From positions 24,856,810 to 24,920,809 of the forward strand of contig NC_034014.1 in the NCBI RefSeq assembly GCF_000346465.2: a stretch of DNA of 64,000 nt. The letters are read 5' to 3'. Below, piece by piece: positions 27,478-43,023 of this stretch (its first letter is position 1; every line of letters begins with the position of its first letter). The position numbers and the translations under genes are program-made. The notes beneath the pieces are model-generated. The model did not search any database, was not told the DNA's origin, and worked only from the letters and a program-made list of their open reading frames with translations. Origin of the DNA: Prunus persica. Its lineage: Eukaryota; Streptophyta; Magnoliopsida; Rosales; Rosaceae.

Positions 27478-27545
27478 CCCCTTGGTTCTCCCTACGGTTT
27501 CTATCGATCGATCTGTTACAAATCTGCTGCGTGTTCTGAGTCAGA

Positions 27546-27887
27546 ATGGATGACGAATCGAGTGGTACGGTGGTGAAGCTGCTAGTTCGTGGTCGAAAAC
27601 GATATCGAATAAAGTCATATACTTCAGAGCCAGAAAAGAAGAAAATTAGGAAGGTATTACATGAAGGCGTCCTGGTAGAAATTCTCTCAAAACTGCCTGC
27701 CAAGTCTGTACTCAGGTTTAGACGCGTCTCAAAAGAGTGGTATGCTCTCACCAAAACTTCTTATTTCATTGCTAGACATGACCTTCATCGTCGCTCTCGC
27801 TCCGCTCAGAATCATGGTCTTCTCCTTGTCGCGAAATATCTCACCAATGAAAAATCTGAGAGACTTCTAATGATGTCATTGCATCCT
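27546..27887 (+). pseudogene. F-box gene, 5' part, interrupted by a CACTA transposon
   Basis: The N-terminal 114 codons of an F-box protein, closely similar to residues 1-about 110 of the intact paralogue at 46772. It contains MDDESSG, the basic block RGRKRYRIKSYTSEP and the F-box itself (VLVEILSKLPAKSVLRFRRVSKEWY, residues about 40-65). The reading is cut exactly after the CCT codon at 27885-27887, where the CACTA element begins, and terminates 5 codons into the transposon. The remainder lies at 41968-43023. Apart from the insertion no stop or frameshift was seen, so disruption looks recent. The F-box would bind SKP1 in an SCF ubiquitin ligase. Confidence 0.93.
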
Positions 27888-28669
27888 CACTACTACAAAA
27901 AGTGAAAAAGACGACCAGAAAACAACGACGGTCTAAGTGAAAACCGTCGTGGTTTATAAAAAGACGACGGTTCTAAAAACACCGTCGTGTAATACAACCT
28001 TAGACAACTAAAAAATGGAGTTTCAAATGGCTGTTCAAAAACAACGACGTACATAATTAAACAACCGACGTCTATTTGAAACAGATTTCCTCAGTGTAAA
28101 ATCAATGCCAACAAAGAACGGCAGAAGTTATGAATCGACCGACGTAGAAAGTAAAGACGACGATTTCAATAAAAACTGCCGTTTTTACTCATAAAATAAC
28201 ACGACGAGGTTTTCGTATAAGACGCCGTATAATTACAAACAAATCCACGGCTTTAAAATACAAAATATCGCCGTATTAAATTAATTTACAACGACGGAAA
28301 ATATAAATATATCGACGTCATTCTCGTATAGTTCTACTACGTTATCTTTAAATCGTACAATAAAATTTATCGTCGTATTTATTCATTTTATACGTCGTAC
28401 CTTTAATTTTAACGGTCGTCTTAATAAGAATTTTTGTTAACAATTTTTTTCTTTGATTTTCTTATCCTACGTCGGTAGATCTACTTAATGACAAGAATTG
28501 AAATAACCACGACGGTTTATATAGAACACCGCCGACATAATCAGTTTTGTCTGAGATCCCAAGGGTTACGAAATCTTACCAGATGGAACTCTGTTCCACA
28601 TCATAATCTTAACAGATGACACAGATTTGCAAATATTGCGTCGTGTTAGTTTACAAATTCTAGAACATT

Positions 28670-28800
28670 AATTTCCCTCATTTTAAATTTCCTCGGGAAA
28701 GAAAAATCTATTTATCACGCTTTGGAATTGAAAACTAAAACTGAAAGAATACGGGAAAAAAAACTCCATTTATAATTTAAAATTAAAATCCACGTCGGTT
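28670..28800 (+). repeat. Direct repeat left of the RPN6 fragment
   Basis: attaatttccctcattttaa through aaaatccacgtcggtt recurs with small changes at about 29888-30026. The two copies bracket the captured RPN6 fragment. Confidence 0.8.
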
Positions 28801-28948
28801 GTAGTACACTTAACGACGTTTAACAAAATAATCTACGTCGGTAATTATAAATCTACCGCCATCGTAACTTAATATAGACGACGAGAAAAGACGACGGTAG
28901 AACAGAAAACCGCCGTTGTTTCAGTTTCTTTAACATATCTTTCTGCAG

Positions 28949-29420
28949 GACTTGTGTAGTTCAAAGCATTGACAATGTCTTCATCATATCTCCCAGAAAC
29001 TACTGATTCAATTGCTCATGCTTTAGAGGCCATCTGAAGCCATTTCTATTCTTTATCGCATTCTTGAAACCCATCTTCTTCTTCTGAAGCTCTACGGATA
29101 AAGGAAGAGGCTATCACAATAAATCCGACGGATCTTCTTAGGCAAGAAAATCAAGCAGAGGATCAGGCACATCTGATCTTCAGATTTCCCTGAGAAGCGA
29201 ACTTTCCTTCGACAGCGAGTGGAGGCCAGGCTTGCATCTCTTTTGATGGAAAGCAAGGAGTATTCAGAAGCACTAAGTGTCCTATCAGGCTTGATCAAGG
29301 AAGTGAGAAGGCTAGTTGACAAGCTTCTTCTTGTGGACATATATTTGATGCGAGTAAGCTCAATTTCTCTTTGAGAAAACATCCAAATTATTATCTTTGA
29401 GACATGAGAGACTGAGAGAG
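28949..29420 (+). pseudogene. RPN6: Captured fragment of RPN6 (26S proteasome lid subunit, PSMD11)
   Basis: Starting at the ATG at 28975 the plus strand reads MSSSYLPETTDSIAHALEA, then pieces matching SISILYRILE-NPSSSSEALRIKEEAI and TDLLRQENQAED in shifting frames. After an internal deletion comes KRTFLRQRVEARLASLLMES, KEYSEALSVLSGLIKEVRRL and LLLVDIYL. These match the N-terminal region of plant RPN6. A splice-acceptor-like ctgcag and leader-like bases (28949-28974) precede the ATG, so leader sequence came along. Stops and frameshifts exclude a working subunit. It lies inside the CACTA element, between two direct repeats, so it is a transduplicated host fragment. The long antisense frame here (29092-29496) is its shadow. 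Confidence 0.88.
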
Positions 29421-29887
29421 GAAGAACTTGGAACCTTAAATGTAAACCGAAAATGAATGAAAGCGACAAATTTATAGAATAAATTTTTAAAACCAACGGC
29501 GGTCCTTACAAACAAACCGCCGTTTAAATTGTAAAATCAACGTCGGTATGATCGACGTATATTACAGAAATCCACGTCGGTAAATTAATAAAAACGACGT
29601 GTTAAATAATATACCATGACGCGAGTTATTACTTATGTACTTTAATTTTTGAGTTTACTACGACGGTACCTACAAACTACTGTCGTATTTATTTACCACG
29701 TCCGAAGTTAAATGTACCGTCGTATTTTGTAATTTATACGTCGTAGTTATATGTAACCGCCATATTATTTTTTTGAAATGGTTTTATATGTAAGCAACTT
29801 TTCGTCTACTTGACTTACACATTTGTTGTTTTTATATTCTTATTTTATTTAAATCTGTCATCCAAAAAAGAAACTTTACATATTGCA

Positions 29888-30026
29888 GAATATTAATTTC
29901 CTTCGTTTTAAATTTCCTCCGGAAAAAAAACTCTATTTATAACGCACTGTAATTGAAAAATAAACTGAAAGGTCACGGGAAAAAAAATTCTATTCATAAT
30001 TTAAAAATTAAAATCCACGTCGGTTA
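29888..30026 (+). repeat. Direct repeat right of the RPN6 fragment
   Basis: The second copy of the segment at 28670-28800 (attaatttccttcgttttaa to aaaatccacgtcggtt). A further repeat pair lies beside it: aaatggttttatatgtaagc at about 29777 and 30138. Confidence 0.8.
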
Positions 30027-30179
30027 TATTAAACCTAACGACGTTAAATGAAATGATTCCACGTCGAATGAAAAATATTGCGTCGTTTTAGTTAAAAACG
30101 ACGTAGTTAAATGTAACCGCCGTATTATTTTTTTGAAATGGTTTTATATGTAAGCAACTTTTCGACTTACACATGCACT

Positions 30180-30942
30180 GTTTCCAAACCCGATTAAAAA
30201 TTTCAATCTCCCAGAGAAACCTTTTCGTCTTTTTTCCTTGTCAGAGCATTGTCAGAGTTTCTCATCGTCTTCCTCTCGTCTTCTTCGTCGTCTCTGAACT
30301 TAAACATCGATCATCTTCCTCTTGCTTTCATTGCACGCAAAAGGTAAGCTTTCATTTTCACTATTTTGGTTACTGTTTTGCATGCTCATACGTTTTTTGT
30401 TTGAAAAATCTTTTTACCTTTTTTCTGGCCAAAATCATTTTACTTCTTTCCAAGTTTGATAAAATATACAGACAAAGAGAGAAAGTTTCCAACTTTGAAG
30501 ACAACTACATCAACTAAATAAGACGACGGTAGACCACGACGGTTCGTCAGTTGTTCTAGCGTCGTCTGAAAATTGACAAAGTTGTTTTTAAAATAATAGT
30601 CTTTTTTTATATGCTTGTTTAATTGCAGGTTTGATTTCGCTGAACAATGGTTTTTGTTTTTCCCTTATTTGATAAAATATAAAGAAAAAGAAACTAGGGT
30701 TGGTATCTAATATAGACGATAAAATATAAATAATAGTTTACCACGACGGTGTATTACTATTGACGTCGTGTGAACATATATACCACGACGTTATATAAAT
30801 AATGGTTTTAAACATTTATTACGTCTGAGATTATTTCATTGCGTCGTCTAAAATCATATCATACGTCGTATTTTTTTAATACCGTCGTTTGTGTTCTTAA
30901 TGTTTTCCTGAAATATTTTCACTTGCAGTTTTGTCTGTTAAA
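30180..30942 (+). other. 5' UTR region of the Transposase_24/Ulp1 gene
   Basis: A leader exon free of the CG motif array (about 30180-30341) ends with a good donor (aaaag, then gtaagc). Possible acceptors lie at ttgcag (about 30629) and cttgcag (about 30928), leading to the ATG at 30943. Splicing order is inferred. Confidence 0.45.
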
Positions 30943-33900
30943 ATGGTTTCTCAACAACAAACTAAGGATTCTGGCTCCAAGAAGCTTGGAATGGTAGCTC
31001 CTCAAGATAAGTCTTCGAAGGAGATGAAGTCTTCGAAGAAGATGAAGTTTGCTTCATCATCTGCTGAGACAGAACAAACCAGCCAGACAACAATCTCAGA
31101 TGATTCAAAGACTGGTCGAGGTATGAGCACAATGCCTCGTGTTGTGAAGAGAAAGCTTCAGAAACTGAGGCCAATTGTTGAGTACAATAAAAGGGGGAAA
31201 GGTGTTGGCCAAGCACATATTGAGATGCAGTCGTATATTGGTGTGTTGGCACGCTCCAGGATCCCACTTGTGGACAAGAAATGGTCCCAAATCCCCAAGG
31301 ATATAAAGGAGCAGATTTGGGAAGCAGTTGACATGGCTTTTGTCGTAGGCCAAGGGGGCAAGACCTCTGTTTTAGCTTCTGCTTCCAAGAAATGGAAGGA
31401 TTTCAAGTCTACACTAACGAGGCATTATATCCTTCCATACACCAATGACAGGGAGAAATTAAGCCAACCCCCTGAAACATATAAATTCATAGAGAAAGCA
31501 CAATGGGATGCCTTTGTAGCTTCAAGGCTATCCAAAGATTTTGAGTCTGTGCATTCTCAACATGCACAGATTAGGGAGAAACTCGAGTACAATCATCGAT
31601 TGTCTCGAAAAGGATATGCTGGATTGGAGGATCAATTGGAGGAAACCATGCCTGGGGTAGAAATTGATCGATCTACCTTATGGAAGAGAGCTAGACAGGA
31701 CAAACATGGTAACATCCCTGATCCAAAGGTGGCAGAGAAAGCAAAATTAATTGTAAGCCTACTATCACTCTGTTTTAAATTTTTATTAAACTGTGAATTA
31801 TTCTTATTACGTCGTATGTTATATTTTTCGTCGTGTGAATGATATTACCACGTCGAAAAGTTTTTAAAAACGTCGTTAAAGGTCTAAATAGGAATCACTA
31901 CTATGTTTTCTGTAATTACAGCATAAGACGTCGGTGGTTCATTTTCGCGTCGTGTGAATGATATTACCACGTCGAAAATTTTTTAAAAACGTCGTTAACG
32001 GTCTAAATAGGAATCACTACTCTGTTATCTTTAATTATAGCATAAGACGTCGGTTGTTTATTCATTTCGTCGTTTTAAATAAATAACCACGTCGGTATAA
32101 CTACCGTCGTGATAAGTTATAATAACGTCGGTTTATACGTTATTGCGTCGTGTGAAATTATATAATACGTCGTTTGTACATAAATAACCGTCGTGTGTTT
32201 TTTTGTTTATCTTTTTTTAGGATGAATTGCAGAAACAAGTCTCGGAAGGCAAAGTCAGAGTAGATGGCAGCAATGATGTGCTGACCATGGCTTTGGGCCC
32301 CGAGCATCCAGGCAGACTGAGGGGAGTTGGTGCTGGTGTTTCCCCAAGGCAATATTTCAATTTGCCCAAACCACAGAGGGTGAGCTTTGACGACCGTTTG
32401 AAGGACAGTTTAAGAGTTCTCCTTCAAGAAGAGACTAAAAAGATGGAGGCTAAGGCAAGGGAAGAGGCCTTAAGGATGGAGGCTAGGACAAAACAATTGG
32501 TAGAGGCTGAGAGGGAGCATTTCCTGAGTCAGCTTTCCCAATTAATTCCCAATTTTGATCCAAGCATGCTTAAACCAAGAATTAGCCAAAGCCCCAAAAA
32601 TTCAATGTCTGACAAAGCTAGCTGCTCTGGAGGTGATGTGAGATCCCTACATTTGGAGGATGATACTGCCAAAATGGGGAAACATCAGCCAGATGAAGAG
32701 AAGGAAGAAGAAAAAAGAGATGAAGAGAAGGAAGAAGAAAAGGAGAAAGAAGATGAAGAAAAGCATGACGACAAGGTATGTTCACATAACTTTGCCTTTT
32801 TTATTTGTTTTTCAAAATTTCAGACGTCGATATTTTTATTTAATCCGTCGTTTGTTTAAAACTTAGACGGCGGAATTTTTTTAAGACGTAATAAAATATT
32901 TAAACGACGGTTTTTGCACCGTCGTTTAAATGGTTTCAGACGACGCTTTATTCATAAAACCGTCGTCTTTATTGAATTACCACGACAGTTTTTTCACCGT
33001 CGTTTAAATACTTTTAAGACGACGTTTTATTACTTAAACCGTCGTCTTTATTGAATTACCACGTCATTTTTTTTATTTCTTTAAACAGGTTATTGAAGTT
33101 GGTGCTTATTCAAATATGGAGGCGCCATCTTCTTTAAAAACCCTTTGTCGTTTTGTGGAAACGACACTCCTGCCTGAGGATAAGACACTCCAATTTACAA
33201 TTGATAAGGAGGTGTTTGGTGGTGAGCGCGATACCTTCCTCCTGCCTGAAGATATTACACAATTTGCAGGCATGGAAGAAATTGGAGCTACTGTATTGGC
33301 TGTATATATGAGGTTTGTACTTCTAAAATAATACCTCGTTGGTTTATATATTGCGTCGTCTTAACTAACTACCACGTCGTCTTAACTAACTACCGTCGTG
33401 ATAAATATATTATAACGTCCTCATCTATTTCAGTACGTCGTGTGAAATATTATAATACGTCGTTTTTTTATACATAACCGTCGTGTTTGTTTGTGCTGAC
33501 TTGTTTATATTATTTTATTTGTTTAGGTACTTACACGATGTTTTGAAAAAAGCCAATATGTGCAGTATGGTTGGCTTTATCGACCCTGCTACAGTTAGTG
33601 CCAACTCTGGCACAATAACTGAAAGATCACGACTCGTAGCAGCTCGACTTCAGAAGACAGACGGTGAACAGATTTTCATGATGCCTTACAATCCAGGGTT
33701 AGTCTCCTTAGGATTTTGTTTTTATGATTTTCAATAAATGACAGCTTATAAACTAACCACGTCGGTGTTTTATTTTATTTAGTCGTTTGAAACTACTAAC
33801 CACGTCGGTATTTATTTATCGTCGTGATAAATATATAATGTCGTCGTTAGCTACTTTACTTCGTCGTGTGAAATACTATAATACGTCGTTTTTGTAAATA

Positions 33901-34486
33901 ACCGTCGTTTTTATATTAATTTTGTGCAGCCGTCATTGGATTTTGCTGATTGTAAGAGCAAAGAGAGAAACCGTCTATTTTCTGGATCCTCTGCCAGGAA
34001 ATCGTGTGGTCGATGAAGAGGCCAAAAACATCGTGAACAGTGCTTTAAAAATATATAATACCCACATAGCCCGAGCAGGACGTAAAAATGTAATTTGGAA
34101 AACTCTCTCAGGCACACCAAAGCAACCCAGCAATGTCGAATGCGGGTATTATGTAATGCGCTTCATGAGGGACATCATCATGGATCCTTCCTTGGGGTTT
34201 GAGAATAAGGTAAGAAGAAATTACCTTCATACATTTCACGTCGTTTTTTGTATTATCAACGACGGTCGTGTAAAATTAACGTCGTTGAATGGATATACTA
34301 CGTCGGTTATGAAAAATATCGTCGTCTGTGATTGAATTTCTTTTTATTTATAAACCCTAATAGTCATTGTTTATGCAGTATGCCAAGGGAAACCAGGAAG
34401 CTTCATACCCCCAAGAAGCCATTGATGAAGTCCGGAATGAATGGGCAGAGTTTGTTTTCCAAATTATTAAACAGGGCAATTATTGA
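30943..34486 (+). CDS. CACTA ORF1: Transposase_24-like region fused to a Ulp1 (C48) protease
   Basis: Six coding exons: 30943-31752, 32221-32775, 33089-33312, 33527-33697, 33930-34209, 34379-34486, giving 715 residues in one frame. Residues about 60-270 match the plant Ptta/En/Spm Transposase_24 pattern (VEYNKRGKGVGQ, LARSRIPLV...W, SKKWKDFKSTLTRHYILPY, AQWDAFVASRL). Residues about 320-455 are charged and probably coiled, ending in a Glu/Lys block (about 420-455). Residues about 455-700 form a Ulp1-like domain with RHWILLIV (His589), YFLDPLPG (Asp606), PKQPSNVECGYYVMRF (Gln652, Cys658). All catalytic residues of SUMO-type proteases are present. Related proteins occur in plant CACTA elements; whether this acts on SUMO, binds the CG motifs or both is unknown. 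Introns carry the CG motif array. Confidence 0.85.
31815..32110 (+). repeat. Tandem repeat of about 119 bp within ORF1 intron 1
   Basis: The block cgtcgtgtgaatgatattac to gcataagacgtcggt is present twice, starting near 31829 and 31948, with a partial third start near 32067. Units carry several CG motifs. Confidence 0.75.
32915..33066 (+). repeat. Tandem repeat of about 75 bp within ORF1 intron 2
   Basis: caccgtcgtttaaat ... aaaccgtcgtctttattgaa ... taccacg is present twice, near 32918 and 32994. It shows how the motif array can grow by local duplication. Confidence 0.75.
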
Positions 34487-34839
34487 ACACTTGATATTTA
34501 TGTATAATGTACCAATTTTCTCTATAATATGTAATGTAAAAATTTGTTGAGGTTTTCTTAAATTAAAAAAAAAACAAACATACAAATTGCTTAACCGACG
34601 TGTAATACTTTTCCAACGACCTAATAAAGTCAATAACCGTCGTATTTTGTTGTTGCGTGTTTTAAACAAATACGACGTAAAAAAATAGTTAGACGACGTT
34701 CTTTGAACAATTGAGTCGTTAATGGTTTACAATATCTTCAATTTCTTAAGGGTTCAGGGTATAATCGACGACGTTTATGTAACGACTGCGGTTAAGTCGT
34801 AAAATATATATTTTACGTCGTATAGTTAAATAGCCGCCA

Positions 34840-36083
34840 TGGTTTCTCATTTTAACGACTTAGTAGTCTATTACAATTTACAACGTCTACAATTTATTAA
34901 CACCGACGTGGTTTGTTGTTGTGGTAAGAATATTTTATTATTTTTATATCAAAATATTCAAAATAAATTTAAAATAAATCAGAAAATTGAAAAGTCAACT
35001 CCTATGAAGTCATTGATATATTTTCTTCCACATAAACCTTGAAAAAATTCATTTTGAATAACAAAAATTTAAAATGACCATCCAAAACAAAATTGTTTTG
35101 ATGAGTCATAAAATCACTTCTAGTTTTATGGTTTAGGGTTTAGAGTCTAGGGTTTAGAGATTAGGGTTGTTATTTATTGGGGTTTATTTTTAAAGTATAA
35201 TTTTTGGGTAGTCTATGTTATATGTTAGGCTTTAAAACCATAAAACCTTTTATAAACTTAATTTTTTAAATTGTATAATTTAATTTTATGGGTTTAGTGT
35301 ATTAATTTTTAACGACGGTGGTTGGGTCGTGGAATACATATTTTACGTCGTACAGTAAAACATACGACATGGTTTACGCTTTAAACGACGTCATTTTAAT
35401 ATGTAAGTCGGTTTATATAATTTACAACGTTTTTAATTTCTTAACACCGACGTGGTTTCTCATTTTAACGACGTCATTTTAACGACTTAGTAGTCTATTA
35501 CAATTTACAACGTCTACAATTTATTTAACACCGACGTGGTTTGTTGTATGGTAAGAATATTTTATTATTTTTATATCAAAATATTCAAAATAAATATAAA
35601 ATAAATCAGAAAATTGAAAAGTCAACTCCTATGAAGTCATTGATATATTTTCTTCCACATAAACCTTGAAAAAATTCATTTTGAATAACAAAAATTTAAA
35701 ATGACCATCCAAAACAAAATTGTTTTGATGAGTCATAAAATCACTTCTAGTTTAATGGTTTAGGGTTTAGAGTCTAGGGTTTAGAGATTAGTGTTGTTAT
35801 TTATTGGGGTTTATTTTTAAAGTATAATTTTTGGGTAGTCTATGTTATATGTTAGGCTTTAAAACCATAAAACCTTTTATAAACTTAATTTTTTAAATTG
35901 TATAATTTAATTTTATGGGTTTAGTGTATTAATTTTTAACGACGGTGGTTGGGTCGTGGAATACATATTTTACGTCGTACAGTAAAACATACGACATGGT
36001 TTACGCTTTAAACGACGTTATTTTAATATGTAAGTCGGTTTATATAATTTACAACGTCTTTAATTTCTTAACACCGACGTGGT
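34840..36083 (+). repeat. 627-bp tandem duplication inside the CACTA element
   Basis: Copy 1 runs from about 34840 to 35456 and copy 2 from about 35457 to 36083; tagtctattacaatttacaa occurs at 34864 and 35491, an offset of 627. Copies are nearly identical. Each holds a telomere-like cluster (ggtttagggtttagagtcta, then gggtttagag; near 35131 and 35757) and flanking CG motifs. No coding sequence. Confidence 0.92.
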
Positions 36084-36379
36084 TTTTCAGTCGTCGTTAT
36101 ATAAAAAATTCAAAATAAATTTAAAATTAATCCGAAAAATGAACGGCCTTACGTTCTTAATCCGAAAAATGAAGTTTCCGTCGTGGAATATTAAATTTAC
36201 GTCGGTACTTGTAGAACTTTCGCCTTGGTTTTTCTTTCGACGTTTTATAACGCGCGCGCTCTAAAAATTTTCGCGCGACCTAAATTTTTTTAGATTTGGC
36301 TCTTAGTCTTATACTTTGATCCCTGAAACCTAAAATTTCAGATTTCACGCGACATAACATTTCGCTCTCTCACTTCTGC

Positions 36380-37252
36380 TCTAATTAAAAGTTGCACTCT
36401 CCAGGCTCGTCGAATCTGTGAGCTCGTCCAACCTGTAAGTACAAACCCTATCTTCCCCTTGTAAATTCATTGAATGATATTAGGTTGTTTTGTTAAAGGG
36501 TTTTAGGTATATGCTTTGCGATCTGTTAATAATGTGCTTATAGGTATGGGTTCATGGATTTTCTGTTTAATGGGTTCATGACAAGATCAAATAAAGGTGT
36601 ACTTTTGCTGGAAATCAACACAAAAAGACACATCACCAACTTCCAAATGATTTCCAGCAAAAGGACACCTTTATTTGATCTTGTCATTTTCCGCTCTGGA
36701 GAAGGTGCAAAGTGCACCAATGCTTATAGGTATGGGTTCATGGATTTTCTGTTTAATGGGTTCATGGATTACATTATCTGTTATGTTGAATTGGGAATGG
36801 ATTTAATTTTGTCGTATCTTTTAATCACCCTATGTTATGTTGAATTGGGAATGGATTTATTGTTTTCATGCTTGGTTTCATGTATATGTTGGTTTCTTGC
36901 TTGGTTTCATATATATGTTGTGTTCTTAATGGGTTTTGTGTTCTTGAAAATAAACTGAGACACGACGAATTTTAAGGCGTACGACGACGATTACACGACG
37001 GTGTTTTTAAACTACCGTCGTTGTATTACTTATACACGACGGTTTTTTCATAAACCGTCGTTTGTATTACGTATAATAGACGACGTCTGTTGAAAATCCG
37101 TCGTCTATATATGCCAAATACGTCTGTTTTTGATTAAAACCCGTCGTCTCTGTTGTTTATTACTTGCGATTAGATCATTGTATAATCTGCTATAGTGATG
37201 GTCATTGCCTGTATTTTCACTTTATTATAGATAATAGGTTATAGTGTCGGAG
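36380..37252 (+). other. 5' UTR exon and intron of the TNPD transposase
   Basis: A motif-free, CT-rich stretch (36360-36434) ends at a donor (acct, then gtaagt, 36435). A possible acceptor (tttattatag) ends at 37230, just before the ATG at 37253. The intron would hold the hairpin at 36578-36687, a 44-bp direct repeat (ataggtatgggttcatggat, at 36540 and 36726) and a motif array at 36960-37160. Confidence 0.5.
36578..36687 (+). ncRNA. Candidate small-RNA hairpin (40-bp stem, 30-nt loop)
   Basis: The arm 36578-36617 (atgacaagatcaaataaagg..., ending ctggaaatca) pairs with 36648-36687 with one mismatch. The loop is 36618-36647. It is framed by direct repeats at 36540-36580 and 36726-36769. Size and pairing resemble a TE-derived MIRNA precursor or a small foldback. 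Expression is unknown. Confidence 0.5.
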
Positions 37253-40200
37253 ATGGATAAGTCATGGATGCACTCGGATAGAAGATCGAAGGCATATGAG
37301 TTTGGGGTGGAAGCATTTTTGAACTTTGCTGTAGAAAATCTTCTAACTACAACACATATCCGTTGTCCATGTGTTAAATGTGTTAATTTGAAGTTGTTTG
37401 GGGTTGGAATTATAAGGGATCACTTATACTTTAATGGAATTGACCAAAGCTATAAGAATTGGACATTTCACGGAGAACCTTGGGAAGCAACTACTAATGC
37501 TAGCAGAAATGTTGAAGAAGATGATGGCCATAGTAGGTACAGTTTTGTGTCTGAAGAAATTGATATGGATGATAATGATTTTGGTGATTTTGGTTCGGAT
37601 CCGTATGAGTTTGCCAATGTGATTGGGGATGGAGATCAACCAGTGTACCCTGGTTGTAGAAAGTACACGAAGTTATCGGCATTAGTGAAGTTGTATAATT
37701 TGAAGGCAAAACATGGGATGAGTGATGTCTGTTTTACAGAATTATTGATACTTCAAGGCGATTTGCTTCCAGAAGGAAATACAATACCAACCTCCATGTA
37801 TGAGGCTAAAAAGACTTTGTGTGCATTGGGGCTGAGTTATGAGAAAATGCACGCATGCCCCAATGATTGCATCTTGTATAGGAAGGAGTATGAGGATTCA
37901 ACTAATTGTCCTACTTGTGGTATCTCAAGGTGGAAGGAAGGCAAAGATGCAATCTTGAAAGAGGGTGTGCCAGCGAAGGTGGTGTGGTATTTTCCCCCAA
38001 TTCCAAGGTTTAAAAGGATGTTTCAATCACATGAGACAGCTAAGAGTTTGACTTGGTGGCATGTTGCTAGAAAATCAATTGACGGTCAGATGTCTCATCC
38101 GGCGGATTCCCCGTCTTGGAAACTTCTTGATGATAAATGGCCTGAGTTTGGTAATGAGCCGAGAAACTTGAGATTGGCTCTTTCATCTGATGGATTCAAT
38201 CCCCACAGTTCTCTAAGTAGCAGATATAGTTGTTGGCCGGTTATCTTAGTTACATATAATCTCCCTCCATGGCTGTGCATGAAACGAAAGTTCATGATGT
38301 TAACCTTATTGATTTCCGGTCCTAAACAACCCGGAAATGATATAGACGTCTACTTGGAGCCTTTGATTGATGATTTAAAATCCTTGTGGGTTGGGATTAG
38401 AGGAGTGTATGATGCACATAATGGAGAATACTTTACACTCAGAGCTGCATTAATGTGGACAATTAATGATTTCCCCGCCTATGGAAACTTATCTGGTTGT
38501 GTTGTTAAAGGATATAAAGCTTGTCCAATATGCGGCGATGATACACCTAGTCACAGGTTGAAAAATGGCCACAAAATTTGTTACATTGGGCATAGAAAAT
38601 GGTTACCAATCAATCATCCATATAGGAGGCAACGTGCAGCTTTTAATGGGAAACCTGAATATGGCATACCTCCAGAGCCATTAACCGGAGAAGAAGTGCT
38701 GCATATGGTTGAAAATGGTGACAGAGTTTGTTGGAAGAAGAAATCAATATTCTTTGATCTCGAGTATTGGAAATACCTTCCTGTGAGGCATGCCCTAGAT
38801 GTTATGCACATTGAGAAGAATGTTTGCGATAGTATCATTGGTACATTGCTGGAGATCCCTGGAAAAAATAAAGATGGGATTGCTGCTCGATTAGATTTAT
38901 TGAACATGGGGGTCAAAACTGATTTGCAACCCGAGTATGGAGAAAGACGTACTCGTTTGCCTCCTGGGCCTTGGAATTTGTCAAGAGCAGAGAAGAGAGA
39001 GGTTTGCAATTCTTTCTATGGTATGAAGGTCCCTGAAGGTTATTCTTCAAATATTAAAAATCTTGTATCTGTACAAGATTCAAGACTTCTTGGCCTTAAA
39101 TCACATGATTGTCATACCTTAATGCAACAATTGCTCCCTGTGGCAATTCGTTCTGTTTTGGAGAAGCCTGCAAGGTATGCAATAACTCGTTTGTGCTTCT
39201 TCTTCAATGCTATATGTGCAAAGACTGTTGATGTTTCCAAGCTAGATAAGTTGGAAGAAGATGTAGTAGTTACTCTGTGTTTGCTTGAGAAGTACTTTCC
39301 CCCTTCATTCTTTGATATCATGGTTCATCTAGTAGTACATCTTGTCAGAGAAGTTCGTCTATGTGGGCCAGTATATTTTAGGTGGATGTATCCGTTTGAA
39401 AGATATATGAAAGTGCTGAAGGGGTATGTTCAGAATCGTACTCGTCCCGAAGGTTGCATTGCTGAGCGGTATATAGCTGAAGAAGCGGTAGAGTTTTGTA
39501 CTCAGCATTTATCTGATGTTAGTACAGTTGGAGTGCCTTCAAGCCAAAAGATGGGAGTTTCAAAGCCATTATCAGGTTGCACAGTGAGCGTAGTTGATCA
39601 GGACCTGTTGAATCAATCACATCTATATGTCTTGGAGAATACGGAGGAAGTCCTACCTTATATCGAGTACGTATGAGTTTTATTCTTTAAGTTTCCATTT
39701 AAAATTATTTCTTATGTTTATCTTATATATTTGGGACCGTAATGCTTGAATTTTTCGTGTCATGTAGGCAACATATGATCCACATCAAGACTGCTTATCC
39801 AAAATTTAGAAAGAGAACAAAGTGGCTGCAGGATAAGCACAATAGCACTTTCATTCAATGGCTACGCTTCAAGGTATATGTTGTTGAATAACGTATTTCT
39901 CTTTTAATTTTCTTCTTATTTATATGTTAGGATGAATTAAGATATGATTAATTTGCAGGTTCAAAGTGAAGTTGAGGAAGACAATCATGGCGTATCAGAA
40001 AATTTAAGGTGGCTAGCAGCTGGTCCAAACATGTCAGTGCCATTATATAGGAGCTATCTTATTAAAGGTATTAAATTCAATATCAAGGCACAAGATGATG
40101 TGCGGACAACTCAAAATAGTGGAGTTTATTTACTTGCACATACCATGCAAGTTGCTAGTGCCAAGGATAAAAACCCAATTCTCTCAAATATGGGTTTCTA

Positions 40201-40603
40201 TGGTGTCATTCAAGAAATTTGGGACCTTGACTACCAAAAGTTTACAATCCCAGTCTTTAGGTGTGATTGGATAGATAGTTCTGGTCTTGTAGTCGACGAA
40301 CTTGGATTTACCCTTGTAGATTTGAGTAAAATTGGACATAGGAATGACCAATTTGTTTTGGCTTCTCAAGTCAAACAAATATTTTTTGTTGACGACCCGA
40401 TGCATCGTGGTTGGTCGGTAGTGTTATCAATGCCTAGTAGAGAATATAATGATGTTATTGGTGATGAAGTATTAGGTGATGTGATAATTGAGTGTGAGCC
40501 ATTTACTAGAGGGATGCCAAATGTTGACACATTTGATGAACTGGTAGGTGAGTTAGGCGGTCAAAATATTCGAGATGGGTGTGAAGATATATGGATTGAA
40601 TGA
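37253..40603 (+). CDS. CACTA TNPD/TNP2-type transposase
   Basis: Three exons, 37253-39666, 39768-39873 and 39959-40603, join in frame to 1054 residues with no stop. The ATG at 37253 (MDKSWMHSDRR) fits the family start. Domain order as known for TNP2: Transpos_assoc (residues about 2-75, with CPCVKC), zinc-ribbon-like CPNDC...CPTCG (about 200-225), Transposase_21 (about 240-480, with PRFKRMF, SLTWW, DGFNPH and CPICGDD), DUF4218 (about 620-770, with SHDCHTLMQQLLPVAIR and MYPFERYMKVLKGYV), DUF4216 (about 894-970, with GFYGVIQEIWDLDY). The protein cuts and joins CACTA ends. The frame is whole, consistent with an autonomous element. Catalytic acidic residues were not assigned by eye. Confidence 0.95.
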
Positions 40604-41964
40604 TGCTTATGTAATTGGCAGTGTATGACATTAATTTTGTAATATATTGTAATGTGATTTCTTCACTTTCTACGTTCAAATAAAACACGACGTTATTGTG
40701 AATCAGTTATTCAGCATATTTACCGACGTCTTAAAGCAACGTAACAATGAAGAACCACGACGCTATTGTGAAGCAATTATTCAGGATATCACGTCGGTGA
40801 AGGATAAAGAACCGCCATGTAATTCAAAATAACACGACTCCAATCCCATAATACCGACGTCTAAAAAACGAGATATGTAATCTGAACGTTAAAAAATACG
40901 ACGTCATCATACATTTTCCACGTCGCAAGTTCTTTTATAAACGAAGAGGAACGAAATTAATTCCGACGGAAATTCATTATAACCGCCGTCTAATAACAAT
41001 TAAACGACGTTATTTGTAATACGGCTCCCATCATAATCTACGCCGTCTATATGTTCTGTAATACGGCTCTCATTTATTTGGAACCGACGTTGTTTAGACG
41101 TTCAACGTCGTCTATATTATTAAGTGCGTCGTGAGTAATGAATACATATAAATACAACGTCGACTATATAAATGTATACGTCGTAAATAATGACACTGAC
41201 AACTATTTCCACGTCATCTTTTTTAGATAAAATCGAAGTGGAAAATTTATTTCACGACGGTTTTTTGTAAATAAGAGACGTTGTAGAACTTTAGCAGACT
41301 AAACACGTCTGTTTTTATTGTTTTCCGACGTTGTTGTATTTAACAACGTCTAATATTTATGGTCGTTGTTTGTTTCTGAAAATAGGACGTATAAATTTTT
41401 TAATACGACTCTCATATATTTGTAACTGACGTTGTTTAGTTTTTCAACGTCTACTATAGAAACACATACGTCGTAAATAATGACACTGACAACTATTTCC
41501 ACGTCATCTTTTATCAAAAAATCGAAGTGGAAAATTAATTGTACGACGGTTGTGTTTATATGTGCGACGTAGTAGGTATCAATAACGTCGTCTTCTAATG
41601 TATTTAAAGACGTCATATTTTTTATTGTCGTGAAAATTATATTTAACGTCGGCGTATTTTTATTGTCGTCGTTGTATGTCTATCTTGCGGCCTTGTTCTC
41701 TTAATATGTGTCATATTTTCCCTTTTTAACGACGGTCTTTTTAGAGAATTGGTCGTCTATTATCATCATCGATTGCTTTTTTTAGATCTTTTGCAGTACA
41801 AAGACGTCGTTTTGTATTTTTTGATGACGTTGTATTGTTTAACAACGACGGTTATTTAGCGTCGTGGTTTATGAGGGAAAAGATGACGGTGGATTCCACG
41901 ACCATTGAAAAACCAAATACACGACGGTGATTTACCGTCGTCTTTTTGCTTTTTTGTAGTAGTG
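40604..41964. other. Right non-coding end of the CACTA element
   Basis: No gene. Dense CG motif array. A local repeat (gtcgtaaataatgacactga ... tcgaagtggaaaatt) occurs near 41180-41245 and 41468-41535. Ends at the right terminal repeat. Confidence 0.85.
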
Positions 41965-41967
41965 CCT

Positions 41968-43023
41968 GATGATGAAGAATCAAAAATTTTGCCTATTTCT
42001 TTCCTCCCCATCCCAAAACAGACAACCTTAAGCCGCTGGAAACTTTTTGGCTGTGTGGGATCTAGTAATGGTTTAGTTTGTTGTCATCTGCCCATTGAGA
42101 AGGAGAATGAAAAAGAGAATAGTACAACGGCAGAGGTGGAGGAGGAGGAGGAGCGAGATGTAGAAGAAAAGGATGCTGCTCCTGCTCCTGCGCATACTGA
42201 TATATTAGTAGTATGGAACCCGGCAACAGGAGAATTTAGGTATCTCCCGCAACCACCTATTAATCTTTTTGAGAAGGAGGAGGGCATAGGCATAGGCATA
42301 GGCATACAACGGGATCGTCATAGGAATTATGTTTTAGGTTTTGATTTCTTACCAGAGATTAATCAATACAAAGTGGTGAGAATTTTCCCGGCACCTCATC
42401 CCGGTAATGATTACGATTCCGACGATGATGCTGATGGAAAAGTTGCCATTTTCCAAGCCCAAGTGTTGCTCCAAAGTACAAATTCATGGAGAGATGTCAA
42501 AGACATATTAGAGTTTCCATCATTTAAAAGTTTTAAAAGTACTTGTCTGTCATGTGATGCGATTACCTTGAATGGAGTGATGTATTGGTTGGTAGAGCAA
42601 ACGTCGAGAGAGTTCAATCTTGTGTCATTCAATTTACGTGATGAGGTTTTTCATTTGATACCACTACCAATAGAATGGCGTCGTCTTACTGTTCAATATC
42701 ATTTACATCCATGGAATGGTTCAGCTGCAATTTTGACTAGTTATTCAGAAAATGGCGATTGGGAGCGAGTGCTTTGGGTGTTGGTTCAAAATCAAGAATC
42801 TAGGAAGCCAGCTTGGGTTCAACAATTTAGAACCAGATCGAAAGTATTTTTGGAATTACGGTGCGTAGGAGCTTGGAAGGATCAATATATTGTCTCCAAA
42901 CGATCACGAAATAGCTTGTTTGCTTATGACCCTAGAAGCGACACAAAGAAAAAGCTTTTTCCCCACTACCAATTCTGGTTTTTTGGAGGACTGGATTATG
43001 TGGAGAGCCTACTTCCAGTCTAG
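41968..43023 (+). pseudogene. F-box gene, 3' part, downstream of the CACTA insertion
   Basis: This continues the gene begun at 27546, in the same frame once the transposon and one CCT copy are ignored; the whole would be 465 residues against 472 in the paralogue. It encodes the FBA-type C-terminal region: WKLFGCVGSSNGLVCC, VWNPATGEFRYLPQPP, GFDFLPEINQYKVVRIFPAP, LNGVMYWLVEQTSREFNLVS. An acidic stretch and GIGIGIG-type short repeat (ggcata, four copies near 42285-42306) lie in the middle. FBA regions bind the substrate for SCF ligases. It has no start of its own next to a promoter, so it is probably silent unless read from the element's right end. Confidence 0.92.

Follow-up and report, generated by a model that had tools for sequence, protein, structure and literature searches.

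We identified a complete CACTA transposable element of 14,077 bp in a 64,000-nucleotide stretch of the peach (Prunus persica) genome (NC_034014.1, positions 24,856,810 to 24,920,809 of the forward strand; this whole stretch is the window, and positions below refer to it), and the non-coding DNA of the element carries a short CpG-bearing motif on a lattice with a step of about 20 bp. The limits of the element were set from its inverted ends, its 3-bp target site duplication (TSD), CCT, and the open host frame over the joined flanks; the inverted termini are of the CACTA type, with CACTACTACAAAAA on either end. The host is an F-box gene with an exon split by the element, so that the F-box domain lies upstream (27540-27887) and the FBA domain downstream (41968-43023). 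Since the flanks joined without the element keep a single open reading frame (ORF), the insertion is probably recent and the host gene probably disabled. Visual inspection of 10 further copies showed a 3-bp TSD in 8 of them, and none in the other two (L036 and L038). The element encodes a tnp2 transposase (PF02992, E 4.4e-96) and a second, TnpA-like gene with a Transposase_24 domain scoring over the cut-off (PF03004; the likeness to TnpA was judged on the Pfam family). Its layout varies from the usual one for CACTA elements in that the short repeats are not limited to the subterminal few hundred bp: they are found in five of the seven introns, in the spacer between the genes and at the ends.

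The spliced frames of both genes are open (six exons and 715 amino acids for ORF1, three exons for ORF2), with exon limits predicted from splice signals and frame alone; an alternative donor for ORF1 exon 1 at 31728 likewise preserves the frame. The core of the motif is CGWCG (CGACG or CGTCG), with two CpGs each, mostly within ACGWCGK. The features are as follows.

27885..27887, no strand: left copy of the TSD, CCT
27888..41964, plus strand: complete CACTA element
27888..27901, plus strand: left terminal inverted repeat, CACTACTACAAAAA, from the analysis of inverted ends and TSD
41951..41964, minus strand: right terminal inverted repeat
41965..41967, no strand: right copy of the TSD, CCT
27888..30942: lattice of the 5′ non-coding region, 44 exact cores
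30943..31752, plus strand: ORF1 exon 1, with Transposase_24 and a weak, sub-threshold Myb/SANT-like match
31753..32220: lattice of ORF1 intron 1, 16 cores (34/kb)
32221..32775, plus strand: ORF1 exon 2 (this and the next two exons from splice and frame analysis)
32776..33088: lattice of ORF1 intron 2, 9 cores
33089..33312, plus strand: ORF1 exon 3
33313..33526: lattice of ORF1 intron 3, 6 cores
33527..33697, plus strand: ORF1 exon 4
33698..33929: lattice of ORF1 intron 4, 7 cores
33930..34209, plus strand: ORF1 exon 5, with the Ulp1/C48 protease core, whose H, D, Q and C align with SENP1
34210..34378: lattice of ORF1 intron 5, 5 cores
34379..34486, plus strand: ORF1 exon 6 and stop, from splice and frame analysis
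34487..37252: lattice of the inter-gene spacer, 33 cores
37253..39666, plus strand: ORF2 exon 1, with Transpos_assoc, Transposase_21 (tnp2) and DUF4218; no CGWCG
39768..39873, plus strand: ORF2 exon 2; its flanking introns (39667-39767 and 39874-39958) are without CGWCG
39959..40603, plus strand: ORF2 exon 3, with DUF4216; one CGWCG
40604..41964: lattice of the 3′ non-coding region, 28 cores

The spacer also contains a tandem duplication of about 620 bp (34847-35462 and 35474-36089, 98.5% identical), and blast pieces suggest that its copy number differs in other copies of the element. A lattice-poor part of the spacer (36533-36958) holds a 40-bp inverted repeat (36578-36617 and 36648-36687, 98%) and short tandem repeats, and is perhaps nested or captured sequence. 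On the minus strand of the 5′ region there is an open frame of 137 codons (29092-29505), without a Pfam match, that overlaps a lattice-free bin.

With the refined splice limits, the non-coding part of the element (8,764 bp) contains 148 cores and the exons (5,313 bp) contain one. In 100 dinucleotide shuffles, made with preliminary exon limits, the CGACG/CGTCG count of 146 in non-coding DNA compares with a mean of 21.1 and a maximum of 30 (about 7-fold); exons hold 3 (mean 1.1, maximum 5) and the 49.9 kb of flanks hold 25 (mean 8.2, maximum 17). The element has no match in these flanks at E 1e-5. Most element cores (144 of 149) read ACGWCG in at least one orientation, with ACGACGG (41), ACGACGT (39) and ACGTCGG (27) in the lead, and the two orientations (63 and 85 cores) follow one another in mixed order. 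Core density is highest in the five ORF1 introns (28-34/kb), compared with 14/kb in the 5′ region, 12/kb in the spacer and 21/kb in the 3′ part; the terminal 500 bp hold 12 cores at each end (24/kb). A sequence-only reading of this DNA, whose element limits and CACTACTACAAAAA termini are borne out by the inverted ends and the TSD, had described an ACGACGG/CCGTCGT-type array running at one motif per 15-40 bp and sparing the exons. The array is indeed strongly enriched over local composition (41 in non-coding DNA, against a mean of 1.4 and a maximum of 5; none in exons and one in the 49.9 kb of flanks). For neighbouring sites the spacing agrees (median 22 bp, from distances below 400 bp), but overall there is one exact core per 59 bp on average; and the exons are unenriched rather than depleted below their own composition.

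Adjacent cores cluster 19-22 bp apart, with further peaks of pair distance near 41-43 and 61-63 bp, and this lattice, which the earlier reading missed, is the main feature of the array. When every site was moved by up to 40 bp as a control (2,000 runs), the 66 pairs at 18-23 bp compared with a jittered mean of 17.5 (maximum 35), followed by a dip at 24-38 bp (20 pairs against 43.7) and a second peak at 39-45 bp (45 against 20.3, maximum 35). Removal of internal repeats (2,029 bp, with 45 of the 149 cores) left 104 sites, for which 5,000 jitters again gave an excess at 18-23 bp (41 against 10.0, maximum 22) and a dip at 24-38 bp (10 against 24.9, minimum 9). Pairs about 20 bp apart are present in all four orientation combinations, minus-minus being the commonest. 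One-mismatch variants are on the lattice too, with a frequency of 7.7% among positions at 18-23 bp and of 1.2% among those at 27-35 bp. Of 148 cores, 64% are followed 18-23 bp downstream by another core, exact or with one mismatch (44% by an exact one), compared with 10% at 28-33 bp. Forty or more sites are available for 49 five-base classes, and of these CGACG/CGTCG is the most strongly periodic (z 14.8), followed by the overlapping words ACGAC (8.7) and ACGTC (5.4), and the best word without CG is AAAAT (4.6). In a motif-free test of 4-mers (AT-only words excluded), the element is weakly periodic in its 5′ region, with 22.0 at lags 19-22 compared with 14.7 (standard deviation 4.6). In all 10 further young copies, some with runs of N, pairs at 18-23 bp outnumber those at 24-38 bp; because these copies are near-identical, they are not independent tests of the lattice.

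The element is a member of a large young burst in peach: its first 500 bp are 100% identical at 40 of 40 scored places (1,064 candidates), the 29-bp left end has 624 exact occurrences (control 0), and a 27-bp transposase tag has 521. By eye, two of the listed occurrences of the 29-bp left end, C1:15788425 and C1:18862621, lie some 10 kb upstream of transposase places of the old type (L009 and L011, respectively).

Older relatives were found with a degenerate transposase pattern built to exclude the young codon, which gave 23 places, 19 of them 84-93% identical over aligned exon parts. The other four are L012 (99.7%) and L017 (about 99%), which are young-like, L025, which aligns over 176 bp only, and L030, which belongs to a distant family with 31-47% amino acid identity. 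Three of the 23 places were extended, giving old copy 1 (L052 with L019), old copy 2 (L054 with L023) and a stretch of the distant family (L053 with L030). The old stretches tested for the motif include ORF1 exons, and they end short on the left, so part of the 5′ region of the element is without a counterpart. Exons of the old copies align with those of the element over 3,973 and 3,258 of 4,972 bp (copy 2 is shorter); in non-coding DNA, 547 and 410 of 7,403 bp align at E 1e-5 (7% and 6%). The motif is retained in this old subfamily, with 41 and 31 CGWCG in the two copies, against shuffle means of 4.3 (maximum 12) and 2.7 (maximum 8; 200 shuffles). The lattice is retained as well when variants expected from CpG decay are included (60 against 18.9, maximum 33, and 49 against 17.6, maximum 31; 2,000 jitters), while the 7 kb examined of the distant family contain no CGWCG at all (1.4 on average in shuffles, maximum 6). 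Motif-free 4-mer periodicity was found neither in old copy 1 nor in the distant family. Amino acid identity to the old copies is 38-64% for ORF1 (piecewise) and 74-89% for ORF2 exon 1, which suggests either rapid joint evolution of ORF1 and the non-coding DNA or a swap of the left part between lineages; with either history, the shared lattice would still need constraint as its explanation.

We also compared C to T changes in young and old copies. In the young set (11 full-length copies, of which L042 and L044 align poorly; substitutions beside mismatches were filtered), such changes were seen at 7 of 10,761 CpG sites x copies and at 32 of 38,863 for other C, a ratio of 0.79 (P 0.70). The old set consists of 18 exon copies among the 23 places (omitting L012, L017, L018, L025 and L030), with their own majority as the reference, and has 188 changes in 1,464 at CpG and 620 in 13,019 at other C, a ratio of 2.7. 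Had the young copies followed the old ratio, about 24 CpG changes should have been present instead of the 7 seen (Poisson P 5e-5), the young set being mostly non-coding and the old set exonic. The pattern fits weak methylation of the young copies; it also fits a burst that is too recent, or copies that differ by source rather than by decay.

The predicted ORF1 protein combines Transposase_24 with Peptidase_C48 (PF02902, E 8.5e-13), and when its protease part is aligned with SENP1 (E 0.025), the catalytic residues of Ulp1-class proteases (H, D, Q and C) are all present. The full name of PF03004 is Plant transposase, Ptta/En/Spm family, and this family name and a Myb/SANT-like match at residues 98-158 (E 0.057, below the cut-off, in one of 28 proteins) point towards DNA binding by ORF1. 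These 28 sequences, the window exon and 27 Prunus proteins, also formed the alignment for a structure model of ORF1 exon 1. Neither DUF1985 nor DUF287 was found in stop-to-stop frames of ORF1 exons 1-5 (E up to 0.001), in exon 1 (E up to 1), or among the 25 of 27 families listed for the 28 aligned proteins. Among the 120 of 487 matches listed, ORF1 homologues are from Prunus only. Many of these (P0001-P0120) are almond proteins annotated as, for example, “Non-ATPase subunit 9”, and a single cluster of homologues can have as many as 99 members, a hint of a comparable burst in almond.

On balance, we lean towards the reading that the non-coding DNA of the element serves as a phased protein-binding platform, with ORF1 as its likeliest ligand and with roles, by analogy with the targets of VANC and TnpA, in anti-silencing and at the ends; its construction would differ from theirs. 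An element-wide platform had been proposed in the sequence-only reading. It is supported as a sequence-specific one by the lattice and by the motif and spacing kept in mostly unalignable old copies, and for the same reasons the finding is stronger than first described; of the further parts of that proposal, ORF1 as the binder is plausible, and anti-silencing is consistent with the missing CpG decay of the young copies. About 20 bp corresponds to two turns of B-DNA, so successive sites would lie on the same helix face, which suits side-by-side cooperative binding. ACGWCGK sites at such steps would thus present the same DNA face to a ligand, and the ORF1 protein, with its Transposase_24 and Ulp1-type protease domains, could bind side by side in the ORF1 introns, in the spacer and at both ends. 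Such a coat may prevent stable silencing of the element, either because methylation is blocked or because a SUMO protease is brought to silencing complexes; at the two ends, bound ORF1 may assist the transposase encoded by ORF2, much like TnpA in Spm. A bolder version, which we put forward as possible but doubtful, is that the two-turn lattice nucleates a filament in which the DNA-binding SUMO-protease of the element lines up on one face of the helix, as a dense coat against silencing, that selection holds motif and phase while the intervening letters turn over, and that this helped the burst in peach.

Several observations weigh against a platform of this kind. CGWCG is absent from both ORF2 introns (of 101 and 85 bp; probability of finding none about 0.04) and from three 250-bp bins of non-coding DNA (starts at 29138, 35638 and 36638), so the earlier description of every intron and spacer as filled holds for five of the seven introns, the spacer in the main, and the ends. 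After removal of the internal repeats, the counts at 39-45 bp (24 against 11.7, maximum 26) and 58-66 bp (20 against 14.5, maximum 29) fall inside the control range, and therefore only the first step of the lattice is secure in this reduced set. Exact sites alone give a modest lattice signal in the old copies (7 against 2.5, P 0.0055, and 8 against 2.4, P 0.002), so the strong signal there depends on the CpG-decay variants. With 7-base words at E 1, 1,599 and 1,192 non-coding bp of the old copies match the element, compared with 126 bp in a reversed control, and some common descent is thus still visible; moreover, in a mostly non-coding stretch of 4,870 bp, 4,399 bp of one old copy can be aligned with the other, so the pair counts as a single old lineage. 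The young CpG counts are small (7 C to T changes), a DNA-binding domain in ORF1 hangs on a family name and a single sub-threshold match, and the AlphaFold model of ORF1 exon 1 is unusable (predicted local distance difference test, pLDDT, 39).

The array might instead consist of ordinary subterminal TnpA sites that have spread inward and act in excision or transposition only, the interior copies being by-products of duplication with no part in anti-silencing. End repeats are known from CACTA elements (the ends of soybean Tgmt* carry 4 repeats within 159 bp and 24 within 732 bp, and a 12-bp motif is present 19-23 times at those of the Jozin elements of Chenopodium), the peach element has its 12 cores per terminal 500 bp and strong folding of its left 400 bp (better than 100 of 100 shuffles, z -4.5), and internal duplications do exist, the 2,029 bp of repeats with 45 of the 149 cores. 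We nevertheless consider this origin rather unlikely, as the ORF1 introns are denser than the ends, and as the 18-23 bp step persists without the internal repeats and is kept in the mostly unalignable old copies. The same strong folding of the left end, together with the closeness of 20 bp to two helical turns, would suit nucleosome positioning or a hairpin structure related to small RNAs, with no protein recognition involved; but two other 400-bp stretches fold less well (z -2.6 and -1.6), and periodicity peaks for one defined core. We rate a purely structural cause as improbable.

Regular spacing, and the local tandem repeats found in the element (periods of 7 to 119 bp, plus the one of about 620 bp), could also be left from a decayed satellite, that is, a tandem repeat of about 20 bp that expanded and diverged, with the periodicity as a functionless fossil. 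This is improbable: the spacing is common to all orientation combinations and adjacent units are almost as dissimilar as any two (flank identity 0.378 over 65 adjacent pairs, against 0.354 over all pairs), both of which speak against a decayed tandem repeat, and the cores fill the ORF1 introns yet spare the exons between them, while the old subfamily has both motif and lattice again in DNA that for the most part does not align. Flanks at least 80% alike occur in 23 of 10,878 site pairs, against 1.8 by column shuffle (a control that fixes the mean by construction and informs only on this count), which fits local duplications. Equally improbable, in our estimate, is that host transcription factors bind the sites and drive expression of the element. 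The cores resemble the ACGT boxes of bZIP proteins and the ACCGAC dehydration-responsive element (DRE) of AP2/ERF proteins, and non-coding DNA holds 74 ACGTCG, 27 ACCGAC and 23 CACGTC, counted on both strands; yet a phased series of about 150 sites that spans 10 kb, even 3′ of both genes, is hardly what an enhancer would require, and the motif is missing from the distant CACTA family of the same genome (0 in 7 kb).

If the platform reading is true, self-encoded, sequence-specific anti-silencing, which has been worked out in Mu-like elements, reaches CACTA elements, with another protein and another grammar (phased, orientation-free and CpG-bearing) than in the Mu-like systems. The idea that a transposable element shields itself with a filament along its non-coding DNA becomes testable, as does the reason for the presence of Ulp1 in CACTA second genes. 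The CpG site phased at 20 bp may also be of use as a tool for methylation-dependent placement of proteins on DNA.

Among the open-access titles and abstract openings listed, we found no report of an element-wide motif lattice in a CACTA element, which is weak evidence of absence. The grapevine CACTA element Cactavine (CACTA-ULP) encodes an Ulp1-type protease domain, as does the peach element (PMC2528002); the accessible text of that report makes no mention of a motif lattice, and in the peach element the Ulp1 domain is fused to Transposase_24 in the second gene. Spm/En, Tgmt* and Jozin resemble the peach element as CACTA elements with tnp2, a TnpA-like second gene and short end repeats in both orientations, but their arrays, as far as the accessible text describes them, sit at the ends, whereas the peach element has its sites throughout, on a lattice. 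TnpA is reported to activate Spm, and its activity correlates with DNA demethylation (PMC10398659). The peach element also resembles VANDAL21 of Arabidopsis: according to the reports on it (PMC5735166, PMC10398659), VANDAL21/VANC21 motifs are dense in introns, inter-gene and terminal non-coding DNA, mainly outside coding sequence, and VANC proteins act from such non-coding arrays; the peach element, too, has a family-specific array of a short motif in its non-coding DNA and not in its exons. VANDAL targets are described there as family-specific, with target regions that diverge fast and with VANA much more conserved than VANC, which is echoed by the lower conservation of ORF1 relative to ORF2 exon 1. 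The systems differ in their proteins, as VANC has DUF1985 and DUF287 domains in these accounts and the peach ORF1 has Transposase_24 and Peptidase_C48, and in the arrangement of their motifs, as same-orientation tandem motifs are not the rule in peach (the 63 and 85 orientations are mixed and adjacent units dissimilar, though 2,029 bp of local repeats are present). VANDAL21 is a Mu-like element, and the peach element is a CACTA element with a lattice of about 20 bp and two CpGs in each core.

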